Source of the DNA: Microbacterium sufflavum
Lineage (GTDB): Bacteria > Actinomycetota > Actinomycetes > Actinomycetales > Microbacteriaceae
DNA length: 64,000 nt
Direction: 5' to 3'
Assembly: GCF_023091155.1 (NCBI RefSeq)
Contig: NZ_JAHWXK010000001.1
Span: 620,001 to 684,000 of the forward strand
The notes beneath the pieces are model-generated. The model was not told where the DNA came from. It worked only from the letters and a program-made list of their open reading frames with translations, and ran no database searches. Both the position numbers and the translations under genes were made by a program. Each line of letters starts with the position of its first letter. The stretch's first letter is position 1. Below, in pieces: positions 7,109 to 26,263 of the stretch.

Positions 7109-9019
7109 TCAGCCGAGCAGCGGGCGCTGCGCCGTGCGCTGCTGCTCGTACTCCGCGCGGGCCCGCCGGGCGCTGTCGGTCGACGCGACCTCGGCGACCG
7201 GCACGTCCCACCAGCCCTCGCCGTCCGGCGCGTAGACCGTGGGGTCGCTCTCCACGTGGATCACGGTGGTGCGCTCCGCCGCCTTCGCCGCGCGCACCGC
7301 CGCCCGCAGGTCCTCGATCGCGGAGGGACCGGGGGCGACCTCGATCACGTCGACGCCGTAGCTGCGCGCGTTCATGGCGAGGTCGACCGGCAGCACGTCG
7401 CCGTGCTGGAAGCTGCGGGCCTGCGCGTCGTACCGGCGGTATTTCGTGCCGAAGCGCTCCGACCCGACCGTCTCGGACAGGTGCCCGATCGACGCGAAGC
7501 CCTGGTTCTGGATGAGCACCACGATGAGCTTGATGCCCTCCGCCACCGCCGTCGCGAGCTCGGAGCTGAGCATGAGGTAGGAGCCGTCGCCGACCATCAC
7601 CACCACGTCCCGGTCGTCGCCCGCCGCCTCCAGCCCGCGCTTGACGCCCAGCCCGCCCGCGATCTCGTAGCCCATCGTGGAGAAGGCGTACTCCACGTGG
7701 TAGCCGAGCGGGTCGCTGACGCGCCACAGCTTGTGCAGGTCGCCGGGCAGCGAACCCGCGGCCTGCACGATCACGTCACGGTCCGCGACCTCGGCCCGCA
7801 CCGCCCCGATGATCTCGGGCTGCCCCGGCAGGTCGCGGCCGGTCGGGGCGAGGGCGGCGTCGACCGTCGCGTCCCACTCCCGCTTCTGCGCGGCGGCCTC
7901 GTCGGCGAGCTCCGTGCGCACGCGGGTGCCGCGCAGCTCGGCGGTCAGCGCCTCCAGCGCCTCCCGGGCGTCGGCGATCACCGGCAGCTGCGTGCCGTGC
8001 TTGTAGGCGTCGAACGGGGCGACGTTCACGTTCACGAACACCGCGTCGGGGTGCTGGAAGGCCGACCTCGACGCCGTCGTGAAGTCGCTGTACCGCGTTC
8101 CGACGCCGATGATCACGTCGGCCTGGGCCGCGAGCCGGTTCGCGGCCGTGGAGCCGGTGGCGCCGACCCCGCCCAGGTACTGCGGGTGATCCCACGGCAG
8201 CACGCCGCCGCCCGCCTGGGTCGTGCCGACGGGGATGCCGGTCGCCTCGACGAAGTCGCGCAGCGCGCCCTCCGCCTCGGAGTACAGCACACCGCCGCCC
8301 GCGATGAGGAACGGTCGCCGGGCCCCGCGGATCGCGGCGACCGCCCTGGCCAGGGGTCCGCGCTCGGGGAGCGGCCGGCGCACGTGCCACTCCCGCTCCT
8401 GCAGGAACTCGACCGGCACGTCCAGCGCCTCGGCCTGCACGTCTTCCGGCAGCGCGATCGTCACGGCCCCGGTCTCGGCCGGATCCGTGAGCACCCGCAG
8501 CGCGGCGAGCGCCACGGAGAACAGCTGCTCCGGCCGCTGCACCCTGTCGAAGAACACCGACACCGGGCGGAAGGCGTCGTTGACGGTGAGCCCGATGTCG
8601 TGCGGTCGCTCCAGCTGCTGCAGCACCGGGTCGGCGACGCGCGTGGCGAAGGTGTCGCTGGGGAGCAGCAGCGCGGGCAGGCGGTTGGTGGTCGCCAGGG
8701 CCGCACCGGTGAGCATGTTCGTGGCGCCGGGGCCCACCGAGGCCGTGCTGGCGAACGTCGCGCGGCGGCGGTGCATCCGTGCGAACCCGACGGCCTGGTG
8801 CACCATCGCCTGCTCGTTGCGCGCCTGGTGGTACGGCATCAGCTCCGGCTGCTCGAGGTGGTACTGCTGCAGCGCCTGCCCGAGACCGGCGACGTTGCCG
8901 TGCCCGAAGATGCCGAACATGCCGGGGATCGTGCGCTCGCGGTGCTCGCCGTCGACCGTCCACTGCTGCGCCAGGAACTCCACCAGCGCCTGGCCGACCG
9001 TCATCCGCCTCGTCCGCAT
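7109..9019 (-). CDS. iolD: 3D-(3,5/4)-trihydroxycyclohexane-1,2-dione hydrolase
   Basis: 636 residues. The enzyme is ThDP-dependent and opens the cyclohexane ring of the inositol intermediate to give 5-deoxy-glucuronate. It shows the three-domain ThDP-enzyme layout: N-terminal pyrimidine domain ([18 protein letters not shown], catalytic Glu region near ARNEQAM), a middle domain, and the diphosphate-binding motif GDGSYLM...NQ near the C-terminal third. The ATG at 9019 shares one base with the iolB stop (TGATG), confirming coupling and the start. It is the last gene of the iolC-barrel-iolA-iolB-iolD operon. Confidence 0.95.
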
Positions 9020-9930
9020 CACTGCGCTCCTTCTGCTCGATAGGGAAGCCGCGGGTCGATGTCCTGCCCGCTCCAGCTGTCGCGCACCCACGCGTGCGCG
9101 GGGTCGTCGGTGATGAGCCACGAGCGCTCCGGGTCGGGGCCCGCCATCACGTTCAGGTAGTAGAGGTCGTAGCCGGGGGCGGCGACCGCTGGCCCGTGAT
9201 AGCCGTAGGGCACGAGCGCGACATCGCCCGTGCGCACCATCGCCGAGACGTCGATGTCGCCCGCGTCCGAGGAGTAGGTGGCGAACATCCCGAACGCCGC
9301 GTCGGCCGACGCCGCCCGCCCGCCGTCACGCGTGGGCGCGGCCTCGAAGTAGTAGATCTCCTCCAGGCGCGACTCCCGCCCCGGCACGTGGGCGTCGTGC
9401 TTGTGCGGCGGGTACGACGACCAGTTCTCCGCGGGAGTGAGCACCTCGCACACGATCAGGCGCTCCGCGTCGAGGGTCGCCGGGGTGCCGAAGTTGTGCA
9501 CCTGCCGGCTCGACCGCCCCGCCCCGCGCAGCTCGACCGGGGTCTCATCGGCGCGGAGGTGCCGGGTGGGATGCACGACCGTCGTCGGGGCGGAGGCCAC
9601 CGCGACCCGTCCGGTCCCGCGGATCACCGCGGTCGCGGCGCACGAGAGGTACAGCACGTCGGTGGGACCCTGGAACACGGAGGTCCGTCCGGCGAGGGTC
9701 GTCTCCGTCGTCGCGCCGCCCTCGGTGTGCGTCACCGTGAAGGAGCCCGCGAGCGGGACGACGATGCGCTCGACCCCGGACTCGGCGAGCGCGAGGCTCT
9801 CCCCGTCCGCGAGCACGCCCACGCGCAGGCCCGTGTGCGCCCACCCCGGCAGCGCCTCGTCGACCACGCTCTCCCAGCCGTCGCGGCCGAGGGCACCGCG
9901 CGGGTGGAACCACGGATCGTTCGCGGTCAT
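9019..9930 (-). CDS. iolB: 5-deoxy-glucuronate isomerase
   Basis: 303 residues. It converts 5-deoxy-glucuronate to 2-deoxy-5-keto-gluconate, the substrate of IolC. This is a bicupin-type isomerase with metal ligands in YPPHKHD and the following Glu in RLEEIYYFE. A C-terminal cupin half carries GDVALVPYGYHGP. It starts 38 bp after iolA and its stop overlaps the iolD start by one base. Length and motifs match the family fully. Confidence 0.95.
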   Translation of the reverse strand: MTANDPWFHPRGALGRDGWESVVDEALPGWAHTGLRVGVLADGESLALAESGVERIVVPLAGSFTVTHTEGGATTETTLAGRTSVFQGPTDVLYLSCAATAVIRGTGRVAVASAPTTVVHPTRHLRADETPVELRGAGRSSRQVHNFGTPATLDAERLIVCEVLTPAENWSSYPPHKHDAHVPGRESRLEEIYYFEAAPTRDGGRAASADAAFGMFATYSSDAGDIDVSAMVRTGDVALVPYGYHGPAVAAPGYDLYYLNVMAGPDPERSWLITDDPAHAWVRDSWSGQDIDPRLPYRAEGAQ

Positions 9931-9968
9931 GGCGCCTCCTGTCGGTGTCGATCGGATGGTCGGTGTCG

Positions 9969-11486
9969 TCAGCGGTTCTGCGGGAAGCCGAGGTCGATGC
10001 CGCCGTGGGTGGCGGGGTCGAGCCAGCGGCTGGTGACGGCCTTCTCGCGGGTGAAGAAGTCGAACCCGTGCACACCGTACGCCTTGGCGTCGCCGAACAG
10101 CGACGCCTTCCACCCGCCGAACGAGTGGTAGGCGACGGGTACCGGGATGGGCACGTTGATGCCGATCATGCCCACCTGCACCTCGTGCTGGAAGCGGCGG
10201 GCCGCTCCCCCGTCGTTCGTGAAGATCGCGGTGCCGTTGCCGAAGCGCCCGGAGTTGATCAGGTCGACGCCCTCCTGGAACGTCTCGACCCGCACGACCG
10301 AGAGCACCGGGCCGAAGATCTCCTCCGTGTAGGCGCGGGAGTCGGTGGGGATGTCGTCGATCAGGGTGGGGCCGAAGAAGAAGCCGTCCTCGCGTCCGTC
10401 CACCGTCAGGCCACGGCCGTCCACCACGATGCGGGCGCCGTCGGCCTCCGCGATGTCGACGTAACCGGAGACCTTCGCCCGGTGCTCCGCGCTGATCAGC
10501 GGGCCCATGTCGGGCTCGCCGGTGCCGTCGCCCGCGCCGTCGCCCACCCGCAGCGTCGCGATCCGCTCGGTGATCTTCGCGATGAGCTCGTCCGCGACGG
10601 GCTCCACCGCCAGCACGACCGACACGGCCATGCAGCGCTCGCCCGCGGCACCGAAGCCCGCGTTCACGGCCTGATCCGCGACCAGGTCGAGGTCGGCGTC
10701 CGGCAGCACCAGCATGTGGTTCTTCGCACCGCCGAGGGCCTGCACGCGCTTGCCGGTGCGCGACGCCGTCTCGTAGATGTACTGCGCGATGGGCGTCGAT
10801 CCCACGAACGAGATCGACTGCACGATGTCGCTGTGCAGCAGCCCGTCGACCGCCTGCTTGTCGCCCTGCAGGACCGTGAACACCCCGGCGGGCAGCCCCG
10901 CCTCGGCCCACAGCTCGGCCAGCCACAGCGCGGCGGACGGGTCCTTCTCGCTCGGCTTGAGGACCACCGCGTTGCCCGCCGCGATCGCCACGGGGAAGAA
11001 CCACATCGGCACCATCGCCGGGAAGTTGAACGGCGAGATGATGCCCACGACACCCAGCGGCTGCTTGAGCGAGTACACGTCGATCCCGGTCGAGGCGTTC
11101 TCCGAGTAGGCGCCCTTGATCAGGTGCGGGAACCCGGTCGCCAGCTCCACGACCTCCTGGCCGCGCAGGATCTCGCCCATCGCGTCGGAGAGCACCTTGC
11201 CGTGCTCGGCGGTGATGATCGCGGCGAGCTCGCCCCTGCGGGCGTTCAGCAGCTCCCGGAACGCGAACAGCACGCCCTGCCGCTTCGCGATCGACCACGT
11301 GCTCCACTCCGCGAAACCGCGCTCCGCGGACGCGAGGGCCGCGGCGATCTCGGCCTCGTCGGCGAGCGCGACCCTGGCGGTCTCGGCGCCCGTGGCGGGG
11401 TTGAACACGGGGGCGGTCCGCCCGCTGGTCGAGGCGTGCGGGGCACCGTCGATCCAGTGGCCGATGACGGGGGTGTCGGAGCTCAT
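9969..11486 (-). CDS. iolA: CoA-acylating methylmalonate-semialdehyde dehydrogenase
   Basis: 505 residues. It oxidises malonate semialdehyde (from inositol) or methylmalonate semialdehyde (from valine) to acetyl-CoA or propionyl-CoA with NAD+ and CoA. The aldehyde-dehydrogenase fold is clear: NAD-binding SPFNFPAMVPMW (151-162), glycine motif SFVGSTP (226-232), and the catalytic Cys285 in GERCMAVS. The Arg at 284 next to the catalytic Cys is characteristic of MMSDH. It sits between the barrel gene and iolB, which fits the final inositol step. The product is also called MmsA; the 3-hydroxyisobutyryl-CoA hydrolase-like gene at 43767 may share the valine route. Confidence 0.95.
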   Translation of the reverse strand: MSSDTPVIGHWIDGAPHASTSGRTAPVFNPATGAETARVALADEAEIAAALASAERGFAEWSTWSIAKRQGVLFAFRELLNARRGELAAIITAEHGKVLSDAMGEILRGQEVVELATGFPHLIKGAYSENASTGIDVYSLKQPLGVVGIISPFNFPAMVPMWFFPVAIAAGNAVVLKPSEKDPSAALWLAELWAEAGLPAGVFTVLQGDKQAVDGLLHSDIVQSISFVGSTPIAQYIYETASRTGKRVQALGGAKNHMLVLPDADLDLVADQAVNAGFGAAGERCMAVSVVLAVEPVADELIAKITERIATLRVGDGAGDGTGEPDMGPLISAEHRAKVSGYVDIAEADGARIVVDGRGLTVDGREDGFFFGPTLIDDIPTDSRAYTEEIFGPVLSVVRVETFQEGVDLINSGRFGNGTAIFTNDGGAARRFQHEVQVGMIGINVPIPVPVAYHSFGGWKASLFGDAKAYGVHGFDFFTREKAVTSRWLDPATHGGIDLGFPQNR

Positions 11487-11501
11487 GCGGGTCCTTCGGG
11501 A

Positions 11502-12401
11502 TCAGGCCGATAGGCCGGGGTGGACGAGGGAGGCGGCGACGTCGATGGCCGCGGCCACGTCGATGTCGGCGGAGTACAGCAACGTGCGGCCGACCGTGAG
11601 GCCGCGCACGCCGGGGAGCGACAGGGCGTCCTCCCACGAGGAGAACGTGTCGTCGGGGTCGGCACCCGCGTCGCCGCCGAGCAGCAGCACGGGCAGGGTG
11701 GTCGCGGCGAGCACGCGCTCCATGTCGTCGACCACGGGCAGCTTGAGCCACGTGCTCGCGCTGCTGGCGCCCAGGCCGCTCGCGATCGCGATGGACAGCA
11801 TCACGGCGTCGGGGCTGAGGTCGTTGACGATACGGCCGTCGACGCGGCGGCTGAGGAACGGCTCGAGCATGATCGGCAGGTCGGCGCGGGCCGCCGCGGT
11901 CACCGCGTCGGCCGTGGAGGCCAGGGTCGGCGCCGTGCCGTCGTCGTCGAGGTTCACGCGCAGCAGCGCCTTGGCGAAGTCGATGCCCGAGTCCACCATC
12001 GCCGGCACGTCGTACCCGGTGTAGCGGTCGTCCATCTCGAAGCTCGCACCCCGCAGCCCGCCGCGGTTCATCGAGCCGACCACGATCTTGTCGTCGAGCA
12101 GGCCGAGCACGGCCAGGTCGTCGATGATGTCGGGCGTGCCGAGCACCCCGTCGACGCCCGGGTGGCGCAGCGCGATCGCGAGGCGGTCGAGCAGCTCGTA
12201 GCGGTCGGCCATGGCGTAGGGCTCCGCGCCCACCGCGAGGGCTCCGCGTGCGGGATGGTCGGCCGCGATGATGAACAGCCGTCCGTCGCCGCGGATGATG
12301 TCGCGGCGGCGGCGCGCGGCCAGCAGCTCGCGGATCGCCCGGGGGGACTCGGCCCGCACGGTGCGCAGTCGCTCGAAGTCCTCTTGCGTCAGTGCTGTCA
12401 T
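11502..12401 (-). CDS. Cgl0159-family (beta/alpha)8-barrel protein, probable inositol-pathway aldolase
   Basis: 299 residues. It resembles the barrel protein found between iolC and iolA in the Corynebacterium glutamicum inositol cluster (Cgl0159 family, DeoC/class I aldolase-like). Visible strands include LFIIAADHPARGALAVG, LLRVNLDDDG and PVLLLGGDAG; a Lys in TWLKLPVV is a candidate Schiff-base residue. No iolJ-type class II aldolase is present, so it probably cleaves 2-deoxy-5-keto-gluconate-6-phosphate to DHAP and malonate semialdehyde; this is inference. The start at 12401 is set by GGAG nine bases upstream; the ATG at 12410 has GGAG directly abutting it and overlaps iolC. Confidence 0.85.
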   Translation of the reverse strand: MTALTQEDFERLRTVRAESPRAIRELLAARRRRDIIRGDGRLFIIAADHPARGALAVGAEPYAMADRYELLDRLAIALRHPGVDGVLGTPDIIDDLAVLGLLDDKIVVGSMNRGGLRGASFEMDDRYTGYDVPAMVDSGIDFAKALLRVNLDDDGTAPTLASTADAVTAAARADLPIMLEPFLSRRVDGRIVNDLSPDAVMLSIAIASGLGASSASTWLKLPVVDDMERVLAATTLPVLLLGGDAGADPDDTFSSWEDALSLPGVRGLTVGRTLLYSADIDVAAAIDVAASLVHPGLSA

Positions 12402-12402
12402 G

Positions 12403-13359
12403 TCACGCATCTCCGTTCACGACCTCCGCGATCTCGCGCTCGGTCGGCATCGCCGTGGAGCACTCGCGGCGGCCGGCGACGATGCCGCCCGCCACGTTGG
12501 CCCACGTCAGGGTCTTCTCCAGCGGCCATCCGGCGAGCAGCCCGTGGCACAGCGCACCGCCGAACGCGTCGCCCGCCCCGAGGCCGTTCACCACGGCGAC
12601 CTGTCGCGCCGGGATCTCGACGCGCTCCGTGGCGGTCTTGGCGAGCACGCCGCGGGGGCCCTGCTTCACGATCGCGAGCTCCACGCCGCGGTCGAGCAGG
12701 GCGTCGGCGGCACGCTCGGGATCGGTCTCGCCGACCGCGACCTCGCACTCCTCGCGGTTGCCGACGGCGACCGTGGCGAAGCCCAGCGCCCGCTGGACCC
12801 ACGGGCGTGCGGCCTCGGCCGACTCCCAGAACATCGGGCGGTAGTCGAGGTCGAACACGGTGTGCGCCCGGCGGCCGCGCTGTTCCAGCAGCTCCAGGTG
12901 GGTCGTGCGGCTGGGGTCCTCGCTGAGGCCGGTCGCGGTGAACCACACCAGGGCCGTGTCGCGCACGGTGTCGGCGTCGACGTCGTCCGGCCGGAGCTGG
13001 AGGTCGGGCGCCGACGGCTCGCGGTAGAAGTAGAGTGGGAAGTCGTCGGGCGGGAAGATCTCGCAGAACGTGATCGGGGTCTTGTAGTCGGGGTCGGTGG
13101 CGACGAACCGGCTCGACACCCCGAGGCGCTCCAGCTCGTCGCGCAGGTACTGCCCGAACGGGTCGTCGCCCACGCGGGAGAACAGCGCGGTGTCGTGGCC
13201 GTACCGGGCGGCGGCGACCGCGACGTTGGCGGCGCTGCCGCCGAGGTACTTGCCGAAGCTCGTGACCTCGCTGAGCCCCACGCCGTCCTGCAGCGGGTAC
13301 AGGTCGACGCCGAGGCGTCCGATGCTGAGGATCTCGGTCGCCCGTGGTCGCTCGCTCAT
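12403..13359 (-). CDS. iolC: 5-dehydro-2-deoxygluconokinase
   Basis: 318 residues, a PfkB-family sugar kinase. It phosphorylates 2-deoxy-5-keto-gluconate at C6. The N-terminal signature GGSAANVAVAAARYG and the C-terminal signature NGLGAGDAFGGALCHG (anion hole and catalytic Asp) are both intact. It is the first gene of the inositol operon. A GAGGAGG ribosome site lies a few bases before the ATG. The upstream region holds a match to the IolR operator, so it is likely repressed without inositol. Confidence 0.95.
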   Translation of the reverse strand: MSERPRATEILSIGRLGVDLYPLQDGVGLSEVTSFGKYLGGSAANVAVAAARYGHDTALFSRVGDDPFGQYLRDELERLGVSSRFVATDPDYKTPITFCEIFPPDDFPLYFYREPSAPDLQLRPDDVDADTVRDTALVWFTATGLSEDPSRTTHLELLEQRGRRAHTVFDLDYRPMFWESAEAARPWVQRALGFATVAVGNREECEVAVGETDPERAADALLDRGVELAIVKQGPRGVLAKTATERVEIPARQVAVVNGLGAGDAFGGALCHGLLAGWPLEKTLTWANVAGGIVAGRRECSTAMPTEREIAEVVNGDA

Positions 13360-13383
13360 CGCCCCGCCTCCTCTCGCTGCATT

Positions 13384-13396
13384 TGTCCTAACATTA
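13384..13396 (-). promoter_or_regulatory. IolR-type operator over the -10 region of the iolC operon
   Basis: TGTCCTAACA at 13384-13393 (plus strand) matches, base for base, KGWCHTRACA, the consensus I recall for C. glutamicum IolR. It also has the GT-N4-AC core expected for HutC-type GntR proteins. On the minus strand a possible -10 element TAATGT (13391-13396) overlaps it, 31-36 bp before the iolC ATG, which suits repression. No convincing -35 is seen. Confidence 0.65.
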
Positions 13397-13425
13397 GCAC
13401 TATTGCGCTCCCACCCGTGCGGCCG

Positions 13426-16113: not shown

Positions 16114-16152
16114 GGGCGGGGACTCCTGTATCTCGGGGGGTTCGGGCGGCGC

Positions 16153-17409: not shown

Positions 17410-18482
17410 CAGCCGATCCGCTCCGTGGTCTCGGTGTCGAACAGCAGGGCGCGGTTGCGCTGCGGCACGATCCAGCCGCGGTCGCCCGGCTGCGGCTCGA
17501 GCTCCTCGGGCACGACGACCTGCAGCTTGTGGTCGCCGGAGCTCACCAGCACGAGGCTGGTCGCACCGAGGGTCTCGGTCACCACGACCTCTGCGGCGAT
17601 GCCGTCGGCGACGGGCTCGGTCGACCAGCGCACGTACTCCGGGCGGATGCCCCAGCTCACGGCCTGCCCGTCGCGCACGTCCGCGGCAGCCTCGGCGGGC
17701 ACGGGCACGTCGGTGTCGCCGATGCGCACGTGGCCGCCGGTGACCGTGGTCTCCAGCAGGTTCATGGGCACGGAGCCGATGAACCCCGCGACGAACGTGT
17801 TGTTGGGGCGGTGGAAGATCTCCCGCGGCGAGCCGATCTGCTGCAGCTTCCCGGCCTTCATGACCGCGATCCGGTCGGCGAGCGCGAGCGCCTCGGCCTG
17901 GTCGTGCGTGACGAACACGGTGGTCACGCCGAGGTCGCGCTGCAGCTCCTTGAGGAACGTGCGCGCCTCGAGCCGCAGCCGGGCGTCGAGGTTCGACAGC
18001 GGCTCGTCCAGGAGCAGCACGTCGGGCCGCGTGGCGACCGCTCGGGCGAGGGCCACGCGCTGCTGCTGCCCGCCCGAGAGCTGGCCGGGGCGACGCTCGA
18101 TGAGGCCGTTCAGCGACAGGCCGTTCGCGACCGACTCGGCCGTGGTGCGGCGCTCGTTCTTCGCGACGCGGCGGATGCGCAGCGGGTAGGCGATGTTGTC
18201 GGCCACGTCCATGTGCGGGAACAGCGCGTAGTCCTGGAACACCATGGCCACGCCGCGCTCACCCGGCTCGGCGTTCGTGACGTCCTTGTCGCCGATCGTG
18301 AGGCGGCCGGACGTGATGCTCTCCAGGCCGGCGATCGAGCGGAGCAGCGTGGTCTTGCCGCAGCCGGAGGGACCGAGGAGGGCGAAGAACTCGCCGTCGG
18401 CGATCTCGACGTCGACGCTGTCGACGCCGCGCACCCCGCCGGGGTACTCCTTGACGAGTTGGGTTGCAGTGATGGCGGCCAT
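17409..18482 (-). CDS. Sugar ABC transporter ATP-binding protein (MsmK/UgpC type)
   Basis: 357 residues. The ATPase domain has Walker A GPSGCGKT (37-44), Q-loop FQDYALFPHM, signature LSGGQQQR, Walker B LLLLDEPLSNLD and H-loop VTHDQAEA. A C-terminal TOBE/OB domain (about 235-357) includes GIRPEYV, typical of MsmK/UgpC/MalK proteins that can serve several importers. The start at 18482 overlaps the preceding permease stop by one base. It energises the two permeases encoded just upstream and may also serve the incomplete importer at the left edge. Confidence 0.95.
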   Translation of the reverse strand: MAAITATQLVKEYPGGVRGVDSVDVEIADGEFFALLGPSGCGKTTLLRSIAGLESITSGRLTIGDKDVTNAEPGERGVAMVFQDYALFPHMDVADNIAYPLRIRRVAKNERRTTAESVANGLSLNGLIERRPGQLSGGQQQRVALARAVATRPDVLLLDEPLSNLDARLRLEARTFLKELQRDLGVTTVFVTHDQAEALALADRIAVMKAGKLQQIGSPREIFHRPNNTFVAGFIGSVPMNLLETTVTGGHVRIGDTDVPVPAEAAADVRDGQAVSWGIRPEYVRWSTEPVADGIAAEVVVTETLGATSLVLVSSGDHKLQVVVPEELEPQPGDRGWIVPQRNRALLFDTETTERIG

Positions 18483-19336
18483 CAGGACTTGATCCCTCCG
18501 TGGAAGCGGAAGCCGTAGCGGCGGTTGACAAAGAAGTAGATGAGGAGGACGGGCACCGAGAAGACCAGCGAGAACGCGGAGATGAGCCGCAGGTCGGCCT
18601 GGCCGCTCTCGGTGTAGAACGTGTACATGAGCACGGCGGCCGGCTGCATGTCGGGCGTGCGCAGCAGCAGGAACGGGACGAGGAAGTTGCCCCACACCTG
18701 CACGATGGTCCAGATCGCGATGAACGCGAGCCCGGGCCGGGCGATCGGCACGACCACGTCCTTCAAGATGCGGAAGGGCCCTGCGCCGTACAGTCGCGCC
18801 GATTCCTCGTACGACTTCGGGATCGAGTCCATGAAGTCCTTGAGGATGAAGATCACGGTGGGCAGAATGCCGCCGGCGAGCACGAGGATCACCCCGACGT
18901 GCGTGTTGATGAGCTGCAGCTGGTTGATGAGCTGGAACGTGGGCACCATGGCCGCGGTCCCTGTCACGATCGACGACAGCAGCAGCAGCCCGTAGAGGAT
19001 GCCGTCGCGGCCGGGGATGTTGATGCGGCTCATGGCGTACGAGGCCAGCGCGCCCAGCACGATCACCAGCGCCATCGTGCCCACGCCGAGGATCAGCGAG
19101 TTCAGGATCGACTTCAGCGCGTAGGGGTTCTCCGCCAGGCGCGCGAAGTTGTCGAGCGTCCAGTCCGGCCATGACACCGTCAGCGACGGGGTCGCGTCGA
19201 ACGGTGCGAGGATCAGCCAGACCATCGGCAGCGCGAAGAACAGCGACACGATCACGAGCACGAGCGTGAACAGGATCCGCGAGACGAAGTGGGTCACGGA
19301 CCGGTCGCGCGCGACGGTCTTGATGGTCGACATCAT
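18482..19336 (-). CDS. Carbohydrate ABC transporter permease, MalG type
   Basis: 284 residues, six predicted helices. The EAA loop is present (ESARLYGAGPFRILKDVVVP). The start is one of two adjacent ATG codons (19336 or 19333); the first overlaps the stop of the other permease by four bases (ATGA). The C-terminus ends in a basic RYGFRFHGGIKS. Works with the permease at 19333-20280, the binding protein and the ATPase in one importer. Confidence 0.9.
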   Translation of the reverse strand: MMSTIKTVARDRSVTHFVSRILFTLVLVIVSLFFALPMVWLILAPFDATPSLTVSWPDWTLDNFARLAENPYALKSILNSLILGVGTMALVIVLGALASYAMSRINIPGRDGILYGLLLLSSIVTGTAAMVPTFQLINQLQLINTHVGVILVLAGGILPTVIFILKDFMDSIPKSYEESARLYGAGPFRILKDVVVPIARPGLAFIAIWTIVQVWGNFLVPFLLLRTPDMQPAAVLMYTFYTESGQADLRLISAFSLVFSVPVLLIYFFVNRRYGFRFHGGIKS

Positions 19337-20280
19337 GAGCGCACCTTCTTCTTCTTCGGATTCGCACCCCGGGAGACGCGCGTGTACATCAGCGCGATCA
19401 CGAGGTTGATCAGGAGCATGATGAGCGAGATCGCCGCACCGAGGCCGAGCTGTCCGCCCGGGATCGCGGTCTGGTAGATGTACACCGAGAGGATGTCGGT
19501 CTGCCCGTTGGGGCCGCCCGCGGTCAGCAGGTACGGCGTGAACGTGTTGAACGTCCACAGCGTGATCAGCAGCGTGTTGGTGAGCAGGTGCCCCTTGATG
19601 TTGGGCAGGATCACGTCGCGCAGCTGCTGCCACGTGTTGGCGCCGACCATGCGGGCGCTCTCCAGCTGCGACGGCGGCACGGCGCTGATGGCGGACGAGA
19701 ACAGCTGCATCGAGAACGCGGTCCCGACCCAGATGTTGAAGATGATGATGCACTCCATCGGATGCTCGATCAGCCAGGCGGCACCCTCGGTGCCGAGCAG
19801 GGCGTTGAGCGTGCCGGTGCGGCGGTCGAGCAGGGCGAGCCACAGGAACGAGGCGACCGAGGCCGGGATGACCCAGGCCGCGAGCACGAGCGTCTCGATG
19901 AAGGTCTTGACGCCGGGACGGACGTTGCGCAGCATCCACGCCAGCGCGAATCCGAGCACGGTCTGCCCGATGATGCCCGAGACGAGCACGAACACGAGCG
20001 TGAGCCACAGGGAGTTCCAGAACCGCGGGTCGTTCAGCGCGGTGGAGAAGTTGTCCAGGCCGACGAACTGCGGGTTGGCGGCCGCGAAGCCGGTGAGCCG
20101 GTAGTTCGTCATCCCCAGGTAGACGGTCCAGATCGCGGGGAAGAGGAGGAACAGGCCGATCAGGAGGAGCCCGGGGGCCGCGAACAGCGTCGCCCTGGCG
20201 CGCCCCAGACCGGCGACGTCCTCCGCGCGGCGCCGGCGGGGAGCGCGGACGCTCCCCGCCGGCATCGTTGCATTCGTCAT
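19333..20280 (-). CDS. Carbohydrate ABC transporter permease, MalF type
   Basis: 315 residues from the ATG at 20280. A GTG at 20286, which overlaps the binding-protein stop as GTGA, is an alternative start adding two residues. After about 30 basic residues there are six helices. The EAA-like loop reads SARMVGANTWQQLRDVILP, and the MalF-type loop TAGGPNGQTD is present. The end KKKKVRS is strongly basic. Part of the importer in the second inositol-region operon. Confidence 0.9.
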   Translation of the reverse strand: MTNATMPAGSVRAPRRRRAEDVAGLGRARATLFAAPGLLLIGLFLLFPAIWTVYLGMTNYRLTGFAAANPQFVGLDNFSTALNDPRFWNSLWLTLVFVLVSGIIGQTVLGFALAWMLRNVRPGVKTFIETLVLAAWVIPASVASFLWLALLDRRTGTLNALLGTEGAAWLIEHPMECIIIFNIWVGTAFSMQLFSSAISAVPPSQLESARMVGANTWQQLRDVILPNIKGHLLTNTLLITLWTFNTFTPYLLTAGGPNGQTDILSVYIYQTAIPGGQLGLGAAISLIMLLINLVIALMYTRVSRGANPKKKKVRS

Positions 20281-20282
20281 GG

Positions 20283-21692
20283 TCACTCGGAGATCGCGTC
20301 CGGTCCCACGACGCCTTCGAGACCACGGACGTAGGTCTTCAGCGCATCGTCGACCGAGGTTCCGGTGGCGACGTCGAGCGTGGCCTGCTGCAGCAGCACC
20401 GACACCTGCGGGTACGCGGCGAGACCGGGGCGGTACGCCGTGATCGGCAGCACCTCCTGGCTCACGAACGTCAGCATCGGGTCGGACGACAGCAGCTTCT
20501 CGTTCACGTCGTCACGCGGCGAGATCGCGAGCGTGCCGGCGGCACGGGCCTCGTACGCCTCGGGCGAGTTCATGAACGCGAGCAGCTCCCACGCCAGCTC
20601 GGCGTGCTTCGAGTTCGGGTTGAGCACGCGGCCGGTGCCGCCCGACATCGACACGAAGTCCTGGCCCTTGATGCCCTCGCCGGGCTCGACCGCGGGGATC
20701 TTGGCGTAGCCGACGACCTCGTCGCGGTTGGCCATGGGCGCGGTGCCCACACCCTCCGCGGGGTTGATCACGGAGCGCCAGAAGTAGTCGCCCTCCAGGA
20801 GGATGCCGATCTTGCCCTCGGCGAACAGCTGGAACGACGTGTCGCGGCCGGAGGCCTCCTGCTGCAGCACGGGGTCGCCCAGGCCCTCATCGACGTAGAT
20901 CGTCTTGTAGAGGTCGAGCACCTCCTGCATGCCGTCGGTGGCGCCGATCCACTTGCCGTCCTCGTACACCTGCTCGCCGGTGCCGACGAGCATCGGGAGC
21001 AGGCCCTGCATGGTCGTGGCCTCGCCCATCGCGGTACCGGCGTTGAGCTGGATCGGGGTCACGCCGTCGATCTTCTTGAGGTCCTTCGCGGCATCGAGGA
21101 TGTCGTCCCAGCTCTCCGGCGCCCAGTCCTCGTCGAGGCCGGCCTGCGCGAACAGGTCCTTGTTGTAGTAGAGCACCCGGCCGTCCGCGCCCTGGGGCAC
21201 CCCGTAGCGGTCGCCGTCGAACGACAGCGCGCTCTGCACGGCGTCGGGGATCTGTCCCCAGCCGTCCCAGTCGTCCACGGCGTCGCCGCCGACCTCGGCG
21301 AGCGGCTTGATGTAGCCGGCCTCGGCGAACTCGCCGACCCAGATGCCGTCCATGCCGATGATGTCGGCGCCCTTGCCGGACTGCAGGTCGAGGGCGATCT
21401 TCGTCTTGTAGTCCTCGTCGTCGACGCCCTGCGGCTGGAACTCGACGGTGACGTCCTTGCCGTCCTCCTCCATGGCCTTCTCGAACTCGGGGACGACCCA
21501 GTCCGCGATCCAGTCGGCCTCGGCGGCGTTCTTGCCTCCCGTGATGGAGTTGGTGGTGAGCGTCAGGGTGACGGGCCCCGTCGACTCCTCGGCCTCGGGC
21601 TCCGATCCTCCGGAGCAGCCGGCCAGCACGACCGCACCGACGGTGGTGAGGGCGAACGCCGCGAGCAGGCGGCGCTTTCCTTGCGTGACCAT
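20283..21692 (-). CDS. Extracellular solute-binding lipoprotein (family 1)
   Basis: 469 residues. The signal peptide has a basic start (MVTQGKRR), a hydrophobic stretch and a lipobox VLAGC, so the mature protein is anchored at Cys about position 26. The body is a family 1 sugar-binding protein, with periplasmic folding features such as DVTVEFQPQG, GTAMGEATTMQGL and EGKIGILLEGDYFW. It captures the substrate for the two permeases next to it. AAGAAAGG six bases before the ATG is a good ribosome site. An intercistronic hairpin upstream may protect its message. The ligand is unknown. Confidence 0.9.
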   Translation of the reverse strand: MVTQGKRRLLAAFALTTVGAVVLAGCSGGSEPEAEESTGPVTLTLTTNSITGGKNAAEADWIADWVVPEFEKAMEEDGKDVTVEFQPQGVDDEDYKTKIALDLQSGKGADIIGMDGIWVGEFAEAGYIKPLAEVGGDAVDDWDGWGQIPDAVQSALSFDGDRYGVPQGADGRVLYYNKDLFAQAGLDEDWAPESWDDILDAAKDLKKIDGVTPIQLNAGTAMGEATTMQGLLPMLVGTGEQVYEDGKWIGATDGMQEVLDLYKTIYVDEGLGDPVLQQEASGRDTSFQLFAEGKIGILLEGDYFWRSVINPAEGVGTAPMANRDEVVGYAKIPAVEPGEGIKGQDFVSMSGGTGRVLNPNSKHAELAWELLAFMNSPEAYEARAAGTLAISPRDDVNEKLLSSDPMLTFVSQEVLPITAYRPGLAAYPQVSVLLQQATLDVATGTSVDDALKTYVRGLEGVVGPDAISE

Positions 21693-21717
21693 TTCCGACC
21701 TTTCTTGTCGTTGATCG

Positions 21718-21735
21718 CCGAGCGGTGGCGCTCGG
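21718..21735 (-). promoter_or_regulatory. Intercistronic hairpin before the binding-protein gene
   Basis: A perfect 7-bp inverted repeat CCGAGCG/CGCTCGG with a 4-nt loop lies in the 63-bp gap between the Gfo/Idh gene and the binding-protein gene. It has no T-run, so it is more likely an mRNA-processing or 5'-end-stabilising structure giving higher binding-protein levels than a terminator. This role is inferred. Confidence 0.45.
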
Positions 21736-21755
21736 ATTCGGGTGTTGCGGGATGG

Positions 21756-22925
21756 CTACTGCGCGGCTTCGGCGCTCGGGTCGAGCGCGTGGCCCTTCGA
21801 GACCGCGAGCGCGCGGATGATCCGCTGCCCGACGCGCACGTCGGCGACCGACTCCTCGACGCTCGCCCCGTCGGGGCGTTCGCCGCGGACCAGGGCCGCG
21901 AGCGCGTACAGCTCGTTCTCGAATGCTTCCTGTTGCATCCACCGCGATTCGCTCACGCGGATGCCGAGCTCCGGGTGACTCTCGGTCACGCGGAGGATGG
22001 TGGGGAGGTTCGTCACGTAGGGCACGCCGAACACGAGCTCGATCGATCCGGCCTCGTGGTGGAACGCGACGGTCTCCTGGTAGTCGGGGTAGCCGTCGAT
22101 GTAGTGCCAGTCGACGGTCCACGGCGTCTCGTCGCGGGCGAGGGTGCCGCGCACGTGCACGGAGCCCGGCATCTTCGGGCCCCAGTGCTGCGCGAACGCG
22201 ACCTCGCCGAGACCACCGACGAGCGACCGGAGCAGCCCCACGTCGTGCACGATCGAGCCGAGCACGACGTTGGTGTACAGCGTGCGGAGGTCGACGGGGA
22301 GGTCTGACCCGACGGCACCGTCGACGATGGCGGCTGTGGCGGCGAGCAGGGGCTCGATGGTGTCGCGGGGCACGTCGCCCGTGGGAGCGGCGAGCCGCGC
22401 GTAGGCGAGCTGCGAGCCGTCGAGCGGGTGCATGACCTGCACGTCGATCGCGCGCAGGGTCACGTCGGCGAGCAGTTCCTTCGCGCGCAGCGACGCGGTG
22501 TCGTACTCCTTCATGTAGCCGACGCGCACCCAGTCGCGCAGGTCGAGGCCGGCCTCGCGCCCGTACGCCGTGAGCTCGTCCAGCTCGGCGAGCGAGTAGG
22601 CGAGCGGCTTCTCGGCGAGCACCCGGATGCCCGCCCGCACGAGCCGCAGGGTGTCTCCCGCGTGCGAGCCGGTGGTGGCGAGGATGGCGGCGTCCACGTC
22701 GAGGTCGCCGGCGGCCGTCGCGGCCACGAGCTCGTCGACCGAGGTGAACCGCCGGGCGGACGGCACGCCGTAGCGGGCGCCCATGTCGGCGGTGCGCGCG
22801 GCGGACAGGTCGACGAGCGCGGCGATCGCGAAGGCCTCGGCGTTGCGGCGCAGCAGCGGCAGGTGCACGCTCTGGCTGATCGCGCCGAGTCCGATCACGG
22901 CGACGCGGGTGACGGCGGCGCTCAT
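21756..22925 (-). CDS. Gfo/Idh/MocA-family dehydrogenase
   Basis: 389 residues. An N-terminal Rossmann fold (VAVIGLGAISQSVHLPLL) is followed by the conserved AEKPLA motif whose Lys takes part in catalysis, then the alpha/beta substrate domain. The family oxidises or epimerises sugars and inositols with NAD(P). It differs from classical IolG proteins at the N-terminus, so inositol dehydrogenase is only one option; a glycoside 3-dehydrogenase is another. The ATG at 22925 overlaps the stop of the preceding barrel gene (ATGA). Confidence 0.85.
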   Translation of the reverse strand: MSAAVTRVAVIGLGAISQSVHLPLLRRNAEAFAIAALVDLSAARTADMGARYGVPSARRFTSVDELVAATAAGDLDVDAAILATTGSHAGDTLRLVRAGIRVLAEKPLAYSLAELDELTAYGREAGLDLRDWVRVGYMKEYDTASLRAKELLADVTLRAIDVQVMHPLDGSQLAYARLAAPTGDVPRDTIEPLLAATAAIVDGAVGSDLPVDLRTLYTNVVLGSIVHDVGLLRSLVGGLGEVAFAQHWGPKMPGSVHVRGTLARDETPWTVDWHYIDGYPDYQETVAFHHEAGSIELVFGVPYVTNLPTILRVTESHPELGIRVSESRWMQQEAFENELYALAALVRGERPDGASVEESVADVRVGQRIIRALAVSKGHALDPSAEAAQ

Positions 22926-23830
22926 GCGAACCACCGCCGCAGGGCCTCGCGGTTGGCGGCCTGCTCGGCCACGGCGCGCTCCACGTCGGCGGTCGAGCGC
23001 GGCACCACGTCCTGCTCGACGATCAGCCATCCGGAGTACCCGCTCGCGACGATCTCGTCGAGCAGGGCGTCGACGGCGAGGTCGCCCTCCCCGAGGGGTA
23101 CGAACACGCGCTTCTCCCACACCGAGCGCATGGGGTCGTCGGCGGCCAGGGCGTCGTGCAGCAGGGCGGTGCGGGCGTCCTTCAGGTGCAGGTGGTTGAT
23201 CCGCTCGCGCCAGCGCCGGTAGTCGGGCAGGGGGTCGCCGCCGCCGATCAGCAGGTGACCGGAGTCGAACGTGAGGTCGACGTCGGTGGAGGCGAGCAGC
23301 GCGTCGATCTCCTCCGGCGTCTCGACGTGCGTGCACGCGTGGTGGTGGAAGGTGGGCTCGAGGCCCCGGTCGCGCACGCGCGCGGCGGCGCGGTTCACCC
23401 GGTCGGCGAACCGGTCCCACGCGGCACCGCGGAGCGTGAGCTCGGGGGCGCCGCCCGGGCGGGCCTTGCGGGCGGGGCTGCCGGAGTCGGCGAGGGTGGG
23501 CAGCGGTGCGAGGTCCTGGCCGCGGTCGGCGGCGGTGACGAACACGTCGAGCGTGCGGTCGAGGCCGGCCAGCGCGGCGGCGAACTCCTCGTCCTCGCCC
23601 GCGAACGGCAGGTCGACCCAGCCGCCGGCGAGGTCGAGGCCGTGGCGGGAGAGGCGCTCGTCGAGCTCGGCGCCCTGGCCGAGGAGACCGACGGGGCCCA
23701 GGTCGATGCCCTGGTATCCGGCTTCGCTGATCCAGCGGGCGAGCTGCTCCCCGTCGGGGAGGGCCACGAGGTCCGGTCGAGCGAGTTCGAAGACTCCGTA
23801 GCTCACCGGCGCGTTCGCGATGCGGATCAC
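22922..23830 (-). CDS. Sugar phosphate isomerase/epimerase-type TIM barrel, IolE-like
   Basis: 302 residues. The N-terminal IANAPVSYGVF resembles the APVSWGV of inosose dehydratase IolE. Metal-site segments of the family are visible: HHHACTHVET, FDSGHLL, HLKD and IVEQD. It may dehydrate 2-keto-inositol or isomerise a related keto-sugar. The start is taken as GTG at 23830 because GGAGAAAGGA lies just before it; an ATG at 23848 has no ribosome site and would place that Shine-Dalgarno sequence inside the coding region. It is the first gene of the importer/mannosidase operon. Confidence 0.8.
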   Translation of the reverse strand: MIRIANAPVSYGVFELARPDLVALPDGEQLARWISEAGYQGIDLGPVGLLGQGAELDERLSRHGLDLAGGWVDLPFAGEDEEFAAALAGLDRTLDVFVTAADRGQDLAPLPTLADSGSPARKARPGGAPELTLRGAAWDRFADRVNRAAARVRDRGLEPTFHHHACTHVETPEEIDALLASTDVDLTFDSGHLLIGGGDPLPDYRRWRERINHLHLKDARTALLHDALAADDPMRSVWEKRVFVPLGEGDLAVDALLDEIVASGYSGWLIVEQDVVPRSTADVERAVAEQAANREALRRWFA

Positions 23831-23877
23831 GCGTTGTCCTTTCTCCATTGAATGGTCGAACCCTGGGTTCGTCTCGA

Positions 23878-23906
23878 ATGTTAGCAGGTCATGACATATG
23901 CATCAA
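23878..23906 (-). promoter_or_regulatory. Promoter of the importer/mannosidase operon with operator in the spacer
   Basis: Reading the minus strand: -35 TTGATG (23906-23901), 17-bp spacer, -10 TAACAT (23883-23878). The spacer holds GGTCATGACA (plus strand 23887-23896), an exact match to the KGWCHTRACA consensus with a perfectly palindromic core GTCATGAC. The -35 overlaps the mgtC-like stop codon. A repressor here would block the operon. The arrangement is seen directly; the regulator's identity is inferred. Confidence 0.7.
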
Positions 23907-24604
23907 TCGTCCTCGGAGAAGCCCTGCACCACGACCGAGCGCACCCCGTCGAGGCGGGCGATCGCGTCGATCAGCTCGGAGCGCGACCCCGGCTCGGCCT
24001 CCGCGAACTCGAGCGTCGCCCGCATGTCCGCCTCACCGTGGATGCGCGCAGCACCGAGCAGTGTGGCTGGCAGCCCCCGCCGCTCGGCCGCCGCCAGCAC
24101 CTCGCGCAGCGCGCCGCGGTCGGCCTCGTACTGCAGGGTCACGCGCAGGCGCTCGGGCTCGGGGCGCACGCGGTCGCGCAGCCGCGACAGCGGGCCGACC
24201 GTGAGGAGATGAAGACCCGTGCCCGCGATCGCGAGCAGGGGCATGTTCGCCCCGCAGGCCATGCCGATCGCCGCGACCACCCAGATGGTCGCGGCCGAGG
24301 TGAGCCCGGACACGGCGTTGTTGCGCACGAAGATCACGCCGGCGCCGAGGAACCCGATCCCCGACACCACCTGCGCCGCGATGCGCGAGGGATCGACGGC
24401 CACCTCCGGCCCGAGCACGCCCTCGAAGCCGTAGGCCGAGATGAGGGTGAAGATGGCCGAGCCCAGGCCCACCAGCACGTGCGTGCGCAGCCCGGCGTTC
24501 TTCTGCTTGCGGGAGCGCTCGACGCCCACGGCCAGCGAGAGCACGAACGCCAGCCCGAGGAGCCCGAGCTCGACGAGCAGGTGGGGATCCCACCCGAAGC
24601 TCAC
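23903..24604 (-). CDS. MgtC/SapB-family membrane protein
   Basis: 233 residues. Four or five N-terminal helices carry MgtC/SapB landmarks (GVERSRKQKNAGLRTHVLVGLGSA, IGFLGAGVIF, GLTSAATIWVVAAIGMACG). A cytoplasmic ACT-like C-terminal domain follows (about 150-233). MgtC proteins are linked to Mg limitation and acid or intracellular survival; the transport role is unclear. GTG start with GGGAG upstream. It stands between the regulator and the importer operon, and its 3' end overlaps that operon's promoter. No functional link to inositol is evident. Confidence 0.85.
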   Translation of the reverse strand: MSFGWDPHLLVELGLLGLAFVLSLAVGVERSRKQKNAGLRTHVLVGLGSAIFTLISAYGFEGVLGPEVAVDPSRIAAQVVSGIGFLGAGVIFVRNNAVSGLTSAATIWVVAAIGMACGANMPLLAIAGTGLHLLTVGPLSRLRDRVRPEPERLRVTLQYEADRGALREVLAAAERRGLPATLLGAARIHGEADMRATLEFAEAEPGSRSELIDAIARLDGVRSVVVQGFSEDD

Positions 24605-24717
24605 GCTGCTCCCGTCATGTCAGCACAATAGCACTTTAAGCATCTCGGAGCTCACCCGCGGCGCCGTCGTGCGCGGGCGCGGCCGGGATCCGCGGAATAC
24701 TGCGCCTCGACGCCGTC

Positions 24718-24747
24718 TGGAGTCGCTCGTATGATTGTCGCTACAAT
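24718..24747 (+). promoter_or_regulatory. Promoter and operator of the GntR regulator gene
   Basis: A -10 TACAAT at 24742-24747 lies 18 bp after a weak -35 TGGAGT (24718-24723). The inverted repeat ATTGT-CGCT-ACAAT (24734-24747) covers the -10 and has the GT-N4-AC core seen at the iol operators and at 25539-25562. This suggests autoregulation of the gene at 24777. Confidence 0.6.
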
Positions 24748-24776
24748 GTGACTCCCCAACCCAGAGCGGAGCATCC

Positions 24777-25538
24777 ATGGCCGATGTCGTCACCCCCTGG
24801 CCCCACGAGCTCTTCGCGGACATCGACCGCACGGGGCCCGTCCCGCTCTACTTCCAGGTGTCCACACGACTCCAGAGCGCGATCCAGTCCGGCGCGATCC
24901 CCGCGGGCGCCCGCCTGGAGAACGAGGTCTCGATCGCGGAGCAGCTCGGACTCTCCCGCCCCACGATCCGCCGCGCCATCCAGGAGCTCGTCGACAAGGG
25001 CCTGCTCGTGCGCCGCCGCGGCATCGGCACCCAGGTGGTGCAGGGCTCGGTCACGCGGCAGGTCGAGCTGACCAGCCTGTACGAAGACCTGCAGAGCGCG
25101 AACCACGAGCCGGGCACGCAGGTGCTGACCCACGAGATCATCCCCGCGACCGACGAGGTGGCCCTCGCGCTCGGGCTCGAGCCGGGCACCGAGGTGCTGC
25201 ATCTGCGCCGCAGACGAAGCACCGACGGCGTCGCGGTCGCGGTGCTCGAGAACTACCTCCCTCGCGAGCTGGCCGACATCTCGACCGAGCAGCTGGAGTC
25301 GCGCGGCCTCTATCAGGTGCTCCGCGCCCGGGGCGTCGCGATCCGCATCGCGAAGCAGAAGATCGGCGCCCGCCGCGCGGAAGACGACGAGCCGGAGCTG
25401 CTGGAGATCGAGGCGGGCGGCCCCGTGCTCACAATGGAGCGCATCTCGTTCGACCAGTCCGGCGCCGCGATCGAGTTCGGCCACCACTGCTACCGCCCCG
25501 ACCTCTACAGCTTCGAGACGACGCTCGTCGCCAAGTAG
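24777..25538 (+). CDS. iolR: GntR-family (HutC/UTRA) regulator, probable inositol repressor
   Basis: 253 residues. The N-terminal winged helix (about 14-85) has the GntR pattern GPVPLYFQVSTRLQSAI...LENEVSIAEQLGLSRPTIRRAIQELVDKGL. A UTRA effector domain follows (about 95-245), including ALGLEPGTEVLHLRR and FEFGHHCYRPDLY-like end. GGAG five bases before the ATG sets the start; an in-frame TTG at 24735 lies inside the operator and is rejected. Sites with a GT-N4-AC core precede this gene, the next gene and both inositol-region operons. It therefore probably represses all of them. The symbol is by analogy to C. glutamicum IolR. Confidence 0.75.
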   Translation: MADVVTPWPHELFADIDRTGPVPLYFQVSTRLQSAIQSGAIPAGARLENEVSIAEQLGLSRPTIRRAIQELVDKGLLVRRRGIGTQVVQGSVTRQVELTSLYEDLQSANHEPGTQVLTHEIIPATDEVALALGLEPGTEVLHLRRRRSTDGVAVAVLENYLPRELADISTEQLESRGLYQVLRARGVAIRIAKQKIGARRAEDDEPELLEIEAGGPVLTMERISFDQSGAAIEFGHHCYRPDLYSFETTLVAK

Positions 25539-25562
25539 CACAACTTGTAATGACAAGTTGTG
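25539..25562 (+). promoter_or_regulatory. 24-bp perfect palindrome between regulator and aldolase genes
   Basis: Arms CACAACTTGT (25539-25548) and ACAAGTTGTG (25553-25562) flank a 4-bp AATG centre. It begins directly after the regulator stop and lies 39 bp before the aldolase start. The inner TTGT-N4-ACAA equals the pattern in the regulator's own promoter. The AT-rich arms and the lack of a T-run make an operator more likely than a terminator. Confidence 0.65.
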
Positions 25563-25601
25563 GTGCGGAAGAATGGACGCATCCCTCGATCAAGGAGCGC
25601 C

Positions 25602-26240
25602 ATGTCCGACCGTCTCGCCCGCGCCCGCACCACCGGCGTCCTCGCCGTCCTCCGCGCCCCCTCGCCCGAACTCGCCCTGGAGGCCTCGGAGGCGATCATC
25701 CGGGGTGGAGTGACCGGCATCGAGGTCACCTACTCCACGCCCGACGCCCCGGCCGTGATCCGCGAGCTGATCGCCCGCCACGGTGACGCCGCCTACATCG
25801 GCGCCGGAACCGTGACGACCCCCGCGCAGGCCGCGCAGGCCGCCGACGCCGGGGCCGAGTTCCTGGTGAGCCCCGGCACGCTCCCGGCCCTCACCCGCGC
25901 GATGCTCGACACCGGCCGCGTCGTGATGACCGGCGCCCTCACGCCCACCGAGGTCATGGGCGCGCTCGAGCTCGGTGTCGACGTCGTGAAGATCTTCCCC
26001 GCCTCGCTCGGCGGCGCGGCCTACCTCGGCGCTCTCCGCGGCCCGTTCCCCGACGCCCCGCTCATGCCCACCGGCGGCGTCAAGCCCGACAACCTCGCCG
26101 ACTGGTACGCCGCGGGCGCGGTCGCGGTGGGCGCCGGCGGCGACCTCGCCAACGGCGCCTCGATCGCGGCGTCCGACTGGGCCGACCTGGAGCAGCGCGC
26201 CGCCCGGTTCGCCGCCGCGCTCGCCTCCGTGCGGAGCTGA
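25602..26240 (+). CDS. KDPG/KHG-type aldolase (Eda family)
   Basis: 212 residues, the normal size. Class I aldolase with Glu41 in GIEVTYSTP and the Schiff-base Lys130 in VDVVKIFPAS; phosphate-binding GGVKPDN and GAGGDL are present. It cleaves 2-keto-3-deoxy acids such as KDPG, KDPGal or 4-hydroxy-2-oxoglutarate to pyruvate plus an aldehyde. AAGGAG sits four bases before the ATG. Its position under the same type of operator as the inositol genes suggests a part in the same catabolism, perhaps for a sugar-acid released from the glycoside. Confidence 0.9.
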   Translation: MSDRLARARTTGVLAVLRAPSPELALEASEAIIRGGVTGIEVTYSTPDAPAVIRELIARHGDAAYIGAGTVTTPAQAAQAADAGAEFLVSPGTLPALTRAMLDTGRVVMTGALTPTEVMGALELGVDVVKIFPASLGGAAYLGALRGPFPDAPLMPTGGVKPDNLADWYAAGAVAVGAGGDLANGASIAASDWADLEQRAARFAAALASVRS

Positions 26241-26263
26241 CGCTCCCCCGCCTCCGGGCCGTT

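Follow-up and report, generated by a model that had tools for sequence, protein, structure and literature searches.

An importer, PHP hydrolase and GH38 mannosidase operon linked to inositol catabolism in Microbacterium sufflavum, with a mannosylated inositol phosphoester as candidate substrate

The window analysed here is a 64-kb stretch of the 3.63-Mb genome of Microbacterium sufflavum (contig NZ_JAHWXK010000001.1, positions 620,001 to 684,000). Of interest in it are two minus-strand operons that lie head to tail, 66 bases apart. The upstream operon (23848-13426) carries a barrel gene, a Gfo/Idh gene, the genes of a CUT1 ATP-binding cassette (ABC) importer, a PHP metallohydrolase gene and a GH38 alpha-mannosidase gene, together termed the module; the downstream operon (13359-7109) consists of iolC, a Cgl0159-like gene, iolA, iolB and iolD. 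Both had been described in this content and order in an original prediction made from the sequence, and profile matches bear this out. Gene starts are approximate, and neighbouring genes were predicted with a simple codon-composition caller. The features are as follows.

24735-25538, plus strand: GntR/UTRA regulator, IolR-type, proposed repressor of both operons (PF00392 and PF07702)
23887-23896, plus strand (minus-strand reading TGTCATGACC): operator-like site before the importer operon (exact KGWCHTRACA; ATGTN4AC in 11 of 11 aligned promoters)
22922-23848, minus strand: IolE-like TIM barrel, proposed inosose dehydratase (PF01261; TIGR04379 136 bits, below the cut-off of 290)
21756-22925, minus strand: Gfo/Idh/MocA dehydrogenase, proposed (mannosyl-)inositol dehydrogenase (PF01408; TIGR04380 43 bits)
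20283-21692, minus strand: solute-binding lipoprotein (SBP) of the CUT1 ABC importer (PF01547, PF13416; lipobox LAGC)
19333-20286, minus strand: ABC importer permease A (PF00528)
18482-19333 (start approximate), minus strand: ABC importer permease B (PF00528)
17409-18482 (start approximate), minus strand: ABC importer ATPase, MalK/UgpC type with TOBE/OB domains (PF00005, PF17912, PF08402)
16153-17409, minus strand: CehA/McbA-type PHP metallohydrolase with an N-terminal beta-sandwich, proposed phosphodiesterase (NF038032 122 bits, cut-off 80)
13426-16113, minus strand: GH38 alpha-mannosidase, cytoplasmic (PF01074 107 bits, cut-off 25)
13384-13393, plus strand (minus-strand reading TGTTAGGACA): operator-like site before iolC (exact KGWCHTRACA)
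12403-13359, minus strand: iolC, 5-dehydro-2-deoxygluconokinase (TIGR04382 370 bits, cut-off 300)
11502-12410, minus strand: Cgl0159-like barrel (PF22649)
9969-11486, minus strand: iolA, (methyl)malonate-semialdehyde dehydrogenase (TIGR01722 644 bits, cut-off 448.5)
about 9019-9969 (start approximate), minus strand: iolB, 5-deoxyglucuronate isomerase (PF04962 266 bits)
7109-9121 (start approximate), minus strand: iolD, trihydroxycyclohexanedione (THcHDO) hydrolase (TIGR04377 826 bits, cut-off 715)

The linked iolD, iolC, iolB and iolA genes place the downstream operon in the myo-inositol catabolic (iol) pathway, where the Cgl0159-like barrel, judged by its position, is probably the 2-deoxy-5-keto-gluconate 6-phosphate (DKGP) aldolase. 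The next gene in the window beyond iolD encodes RlmN, and therefore no iolE or iolG directly follows iolD.

In the module, an SBP_bac_1 lipoprotein, two BPD_transp_1 permeases and a MalK-type ATPase make up a CUT1 carbohydrate importer. The PHP protein is assigned to the CehA/McbA type by NF038032 and by its PHP metal ligands; the nine metal ligands of PHP phosphodiesterases are kept in 13 of 13 aligned sequences. Its closest solved structures are 3e38 and 2anu, and the best structural matches are PHP phosphoesterases; a PADLOC scan of the protein gave no match. The mannosidase has the N-terminal catalytic domain of GH38, with HTHWD, LPDMFGH and AHDS motifs invariant across 20 aligned sequences, and no signal peptide was seen on inspection by eye. 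It falls outside the mannosylglycerate hydrolase MngB equivalog, scoring 305 bits on NF007331 against a cut-off of 1138. A second GH38 alpha-mannosidase, a canonical one with 313 bits, is located about 111 kb off in the same genome (L001, G000:C1:746800-747549). In the Gfo/Idh protein, the EKP lysine and a histidine of the catalytic region are kept in all 39 module homologs shown, and 1,5-anhydrofructose reductase, an aldose-aldose oxidoreductase and DgpA are among its top sequence matches in the PDB. The barrel shares the HHH, DxGH and HxHxKD motifs with IolE (3cny/9zmu).

Where, then, are the IolE and IolG enzymes of this genome? The strongest IolE-like match is the barrel of the module, at 135.7 bits, followed by matches of 37.7 and 28.6 bits. 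The barrel stays under the TIGR04379 equivalog cut-off, and so do the IolEs of the plain iol operons L117, L118 and L120, with only 127-148 bits. No IolG above the cut-off was found among the 15 Gfo/Idh places in the genome (best 147 of 355 bits; the module protein 43). The IolGs of four relatives, compared with the module Gfo/Idh and with eight of the 14 other Gfo/Idh places, are 23-36% identical to them, over partial length only.

Five module-free loci (L117-L121) offer a comparison; they were chosen out of 65 genomes that have iolD but lack PHP in a Microbacterium survey. They link iolC, Cgl0159, iolA and iolD, and homology revealed iolB in four of them. In each of the five, the gene after iolD belongs to the IolE/TIM-barrel family (that of L121 checked against Pfam alone); IolG comes after IolE in L117, L118 and L120 and before iolC in L121, and only the L120 protein passes the curated IolG cut-off. 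A GntR gene diverges from iolC in four of the five. Close to the iol genes, L117 and L121 carry importer genes of CUT2 type; the importer of the window is the CUT1 system encoded in the module. Identity between the window barrel and IolE is 49-51% for L117 and L120 and 31% for L118. IolE and IolG follow iolD in L117, L118 and L120, but here the module lies between regulator and iolC and supplies the only strong IolE-like protein of the genome, so that each operon appears to encode one half of a single pathway. From comparison with the module-free GntR/iolC loci, the order in the window is thus regulator, module and iolC to iolD, with the module barrel and Gfo/Idh in the IolE and IolG places. 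The two operons had been viewed as co-regulated neighbours; the evidence goes further and points to two parts of one pathway, with the barrel as its probable IolE and an IolR-type regulator encoded next to them.

Relatives of the gene set are widespread in actinobacteria and not peculiar to this genome. Among the best 80 of at least 576 loci in a GH38 profile scan of named genomes, a PHP gene is found near GH38 in 31, and importer genes as well in 26 of these; the other 49 lack PHP in the retrieved stretch and were not counted as carriers. The iol genes are within the retrieved flank in 10 of the 31 loci. Orientations differ: the iol genes are co-directional with the module in Microbacterium (L014, L015, L017), opposite in Agromyces (L016) and divergent in Micromonospora (L020, L024) and Nonomuraea (L022, L023, L026, L027). 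iolD is present in each of the 31 genomes; it passes the cut-off in 30 and is split into two contig-end fragments in one (G011). The barrel is present in 15 of the 31 loci and, with the genome under study, in 16 genomes; nine of the 16 have no other IolE-like place of at least 80 bits. In the genomes with no barrel in the retrieved stretch, such an IolE-like place is found elsewhere in 16 of 16.

Unselected surveys covered the genus (PHP threshold E 1e-60), family (E 1e-40) and class; their genome sets overlap with one another and with those of the scans, and the counts are not independent. In the genus, PHP occurs in 11 of 295 genomes and iolD in 75, and 10 of the 11 PHP genomes have iolD 8-10 kb from PHP; these ten include the genome itself, a conspecific and one with a broken PHP gene. 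The one left, G233, carries a 56% PHP relative, and the 20 kb read around it hold no further gene of the module. In the family, PHP is present in 3 and iolD in 69 of 199 genomes, with iolD in two of the three; the third (G225) has a lone PHP. In the class, the counts are 42 and 161 of 394: iolD is present in 41 of 42 PHP genomes, G225 being the sole exception, vs 120 of 352 PHP-negative ones (Fisher 1e-16, a p value that is merely a guide because related genomes are counted singly). PHP and iolD are within 20 kb in 13, and within 40 kb in 21, of the 40 genomes that have both coordinates.

The regulator was missed in the original prediction. Its plus-strand gene, which begins at 24735, comes after an MgtC-family gene, and the regulator is 69-75% identical to those of the GntR genes divergent from iolC in the module-free L117, L118 and L120. 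GntR homologs adjoin the module in several genera. Exact matches to KGWCHTRACA, the IolR-type motif of Corynebacterium glutamicum, had been reported at both promoters of the window and are present there. By itself, the number of matches is weak evidence for operators: three in the window, with 0.96 expected and three reached in 8 of 100 shuffles, and the third (12396-12405), in the iolC/Cgl0159 overlap, is probably due to chance. The sites are credible because they are located at both promoters and are conserved in relatives. The iolC promoters have the exact motif in 8 of 12 cases and TGTN4ACA in 11 of 12, and the exact motif lies in the GntR-iolC spacer of all four module-free loci L117-L120. 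At the barrel promoters of Microbacterium and Agromyces, the exact form is kept in only 2 of 11 and was rejected as the conserved operator there; what persists is the looser ATGTN4AC noted above. A possible regulon of the C. glutamicum IolR type is suggested by the sites at both promoters and by the identity of the regulator to Microbacterium GntRs.

In the 55 module loci, 1.11 Mb in total, there are 19 copies of the perfect palindrome TGTCATGACA, vs 0.44 expected from a first-order model; 18 of the 19 sites are at most 260 bases from the start of an SBP, iolC, PHP, barrel or GntR gene, and one (L111:1644) is away from any module, iol or regulator start. This count replaces an earlier one (16 sites in ten loci, 0.07 expected), set aside as its loci were picked once the motif had been seen.

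Two other genes near the regulator, like it, lie within the region of the original prediction and are unnamed there. The MgtC-family gene (23903-24604) is found between regulator and importer promoter; the same holds in 8 of the 10 annotated Microbacterium module loci, the window included. A KDPG aldolase gene (25560-26240) and ankyrin-repeat genes (together 25560-27001) are downstream of the GntR gene on the plus strand. MgtC was left out of the pathway, being beside GntR only in Microbacterium among annotated loci, and the KDPG aldolase was excluded because it too adjoins GntR only in Microbacterium and not in the loci of other genera.

What does the module act on? The glycosidases near PHP provide hints. 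The GH38 subfamily of the window (E 1e-40) is present in 30 of the 42 PHP genomes of the class vs 1 of 38 controls (G799, 142 bits), the controls being 38 of the 120 iolD-positive, PHP-negative class genomes, mainly from families with PHP genomes. Neighbours were examined in all but one (G721) of the 12 PHP genomes without it. One of these is the lone PHP of G225. G823 has a canonical GH38 beside PHP. Two actinobacterial genomes of 1.4-1.8 Mb (G773, G730) have a GH63 MGH1-like enzyme, and in G738, G698 and G622 a gene for a HAD-type hydrolase is placed between those of the ATPase and PHP. In G746 (L153), an importer-PHP set without GH38 adjoins GntR, IolG-like and IolE-like genes and iolC, and in L090 (Anaerolineae) a GH125 alpha-mannosidase is beside the importer-PHP set. 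Heparinase II/III-like genes are nearby in L156 (G867) and L171 (G540). Directly upstream of the SBP gene of L156 (53-2827) is a gene for a 924-aa protein with no Pfam or NCBIfam match, which could be an unclassified glycosidase. The variation fits a core of importer and PHP for an inositol phosphoester, to which an alpha-glycosidase would be added for the glycosylated form; the putative alpha-glycosidic (mannosyl) bond and the putative phosphoester are each supported by separate clues.

Some of these sets have features of their own. At L152 (17399-18733) and L158 (12603-13886), in the 1.4-1.8 Mb genomes, the GH63 MGH1-like glycosidase replaces GH38 in an importer-PHP-Gfo set with a LacI regulator. 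At L167 (6515-9615) and L170 (8296-11534), PHP of the importer-PHP sets is preceded by the HAD-type hydrolase and followed by an adenosine deaminase.

That the importer/PHP/GH38 operon is linked to inositol catabolism is strongly supported, because its neighbourhoods vary, it co-occurs with iolD, its operators are conserved and the standard iolE and iolG are missing. A chance neighbourhood was rejected on the varied arrangements beside iol genes, the 41 of 42 co-occurrence and the operator conservation. We lean, by a little, towards a single inducible pathway whose substrate is an alpha-mannosylated inositol phosphoester. The most likely substrate, on the sequence evidence, would be a mannosylated inositol phosphodiester such as deacylated phosphatidylinositol mannoside (PIM). 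The import and breakdown of a mannosylated inositol or inositol phosphate had been predicted; the inositol part stands firmly, and there are mannosyl and phosphoester clues, but a substrate is not demonstrable from sequence. In the proposed pathway, the CUT1 importer would take up the intact water-soluble compound, and PHP would split the phosphoester; the simplest case is the diester in a glycerophospho-inositol mannoside, e.g. deacylated PIM. GH38, as its family suggests, would take off mannose. Gfo/Idh may oxidise the inositol ring in place of IolG, and the barrel, whose IolE role is well supported, would dehydrate the inosose in place of IolE; IolD, IolB, IolC, Cgl0159 and IolA would complete the known inositol route. 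The IolR-type GntR is predicted to bind TGTN4ACA-like sites before both operons and repress them, with inositol or an intermediate as the signal that lifts repression.

Several observations weigh against this pathway. The exact palindrome is present in just 13 of the 55 module loci, and those of Actinomadura and Actinomyces are among the ones without it. G225 and G233 have their 56% PHP relatives without iolD and with no importer genes near either. In Microbacterium sp. Se63.02b (L017/G483, 8800-12700), PHP has in-frame stops and GH38 is split into two open frames, which may reflect a decaying module or assembly errors. The sugar need not be mannose everywhere, as the one GH63 protein tested (L152) is most like glucosylglycerate hydrolase (161 bits, cut-off 550). 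No known glycosidase family was found among the neighbours tested in G746, G867, G540 and G713 (loci L153, L156, L171 and L172), and the adenosine deaminase beside PHP in G738 and G622 does not fit the substrate pattern. PHP need not cut a phosphate either, as CehA/McbA relatives are also known for carbamate hydrolysis.

Might the substrate be free of phosphate? A plain alpha-mannosyl-inositol, or another alpha-glycosyl-inositol, with PHP cutting some other ester or a side product, would agree with the recurrence of GH38 and other alpha-glycosidases. CUT1 importers usually carry oligosaccharides, and the CehA/McbA name derives from a non-phosphate hydrolase. PHP, however, has the full metal site of PHP phosphoesterases, stays with the importer even where no glycosidase was found nearby, and neighbours a HAD-type hydrolase in three genomes, which makes a phosphate-free substrate rather unlikely. 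Conversely, the core import substrate might be glycerophosphoinositol or a similar inositol phosphodiester, with GH38, Gfo/Idh and barrel as nonessential accessories for mannosylated forms. The importer and PHP of L153, without GH38 and beside IolG-like, IolE-like and iolC genes, and the variants with the HAD-type hydrolase favour this; the uneven distribution of the GH38 subfamily between PHP genomes and controls, and its place within the same operon in the window, render it quite improbable.

Two further explanations bear on the dehydrogenase and on the inositol link. Gfo/Idh and the barrel might act on the mannosyl unit by 3-keto-glycoside chemistry of the kind known from C-glycoside or levoglucosan breakdown, with only the released inositol entering the iol route by way of an unlinked dehydrogenase. 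The distance of Gfo/Idh from IolG (43 bits) and its PDB matches would suit such chemistry; but GH38 would already cut the glycosidic bond, and the barrel is close to IolEs located between iolD and iolG and is the sole strong IolE-like protein in 9 of 16 genomes, so that this seems very unlikely. Least probable of all, and hardly credible, is that the importer operon serves an unrelated mannoside, e.g. mannosylglycerate, and is beside the iol operon by chance. The GH38 protein does match mannosylglycerate hydrolase in NCBIfam, far under the cut-off; the several arrangements beside iol genes, the near-complete co-occurrence with iolD, the shared operators and the absence of standard iolE and iolG from the genome argue otherwise.

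The mannosylated phosphoester pathway would, if true, have wider meaning. Mannose-bearing inositol lipids are abundant, as PIM and lipomannan anchors and as fungal mannosyl-inositol-phosphoceramides. One can propose, tentatively and with more doubt than confidence, a widespread actinobacterial scavenging of deacylated PIMs or fungal mannosyl-inositol-phosphate head groups, with intact import, a PHP phosphodiesterase of new specificity and a dehydrogenase/dehydratase pair that bypasses IolG. The envelope lipids of dead actinobacteria could then serve bacteria as nutrients, and functions would be assigned to PHP, GH38 and Gfo/Idh subfamilies at once, with a directly testable substrate. Among the open-licence papers listed, no description was found of a bacterial route that recovers the head groups of mannosylated inositol lipids. 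Nor was a described system of this combination recognised among them; the combination itself is widespread in actinobacteria.

How does the locus compare with known systems? The iol1 cluster of C. glutamicum has a GntR-type repressor, IolR; inositol uptake is by IolT1 and IolT2, and several inositol dehydrogenases oxidise inositol (PMC9603128). In the window, an ABC importer together with PHP and GH38, and a diverged IolE with a distant Gfo, would take their place. In both, the enzymes from iolC to iolD are accompanied by a GntR protein, a proposed repressor in the window, and by a KGWCHTRACA-type site.

Escherichia coli MngA/MngB serve mannosylglycerate use, with a GH38 enzyme, import by the phosphotransferase system and glycerate as product. 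A cytoplasmic GH38 acting on a small imported alpha-mannoside would be shared; ABC import, PHP and the inositol route set the window apart, as does the MngB score. The Ugp systems are glycerophosphodiester importers. Shared with them is a CUT1 importer, and the window SBP is weakly UgpB-like (30.7 bits, cut-off 411; UgpB chains were also matched). Unlike Ugp, the module has no glycerophosphodiester phosphodiesterase (GDPD) enzyme among its genes and is linked to inositol genes. The PHP-family phosphodiesterases Sb-PDE and No-PDE act on organophosphate diesters (PMC11656708). All nine ligands of their trinuclear site are matched in order by the window PHP, and 3e38 is a nearest solved relative common to them; the comparison covers the metal ligands. 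Unlike these enzymes, the window protein has an N-terminal beta-sandwich before its PHP domain.

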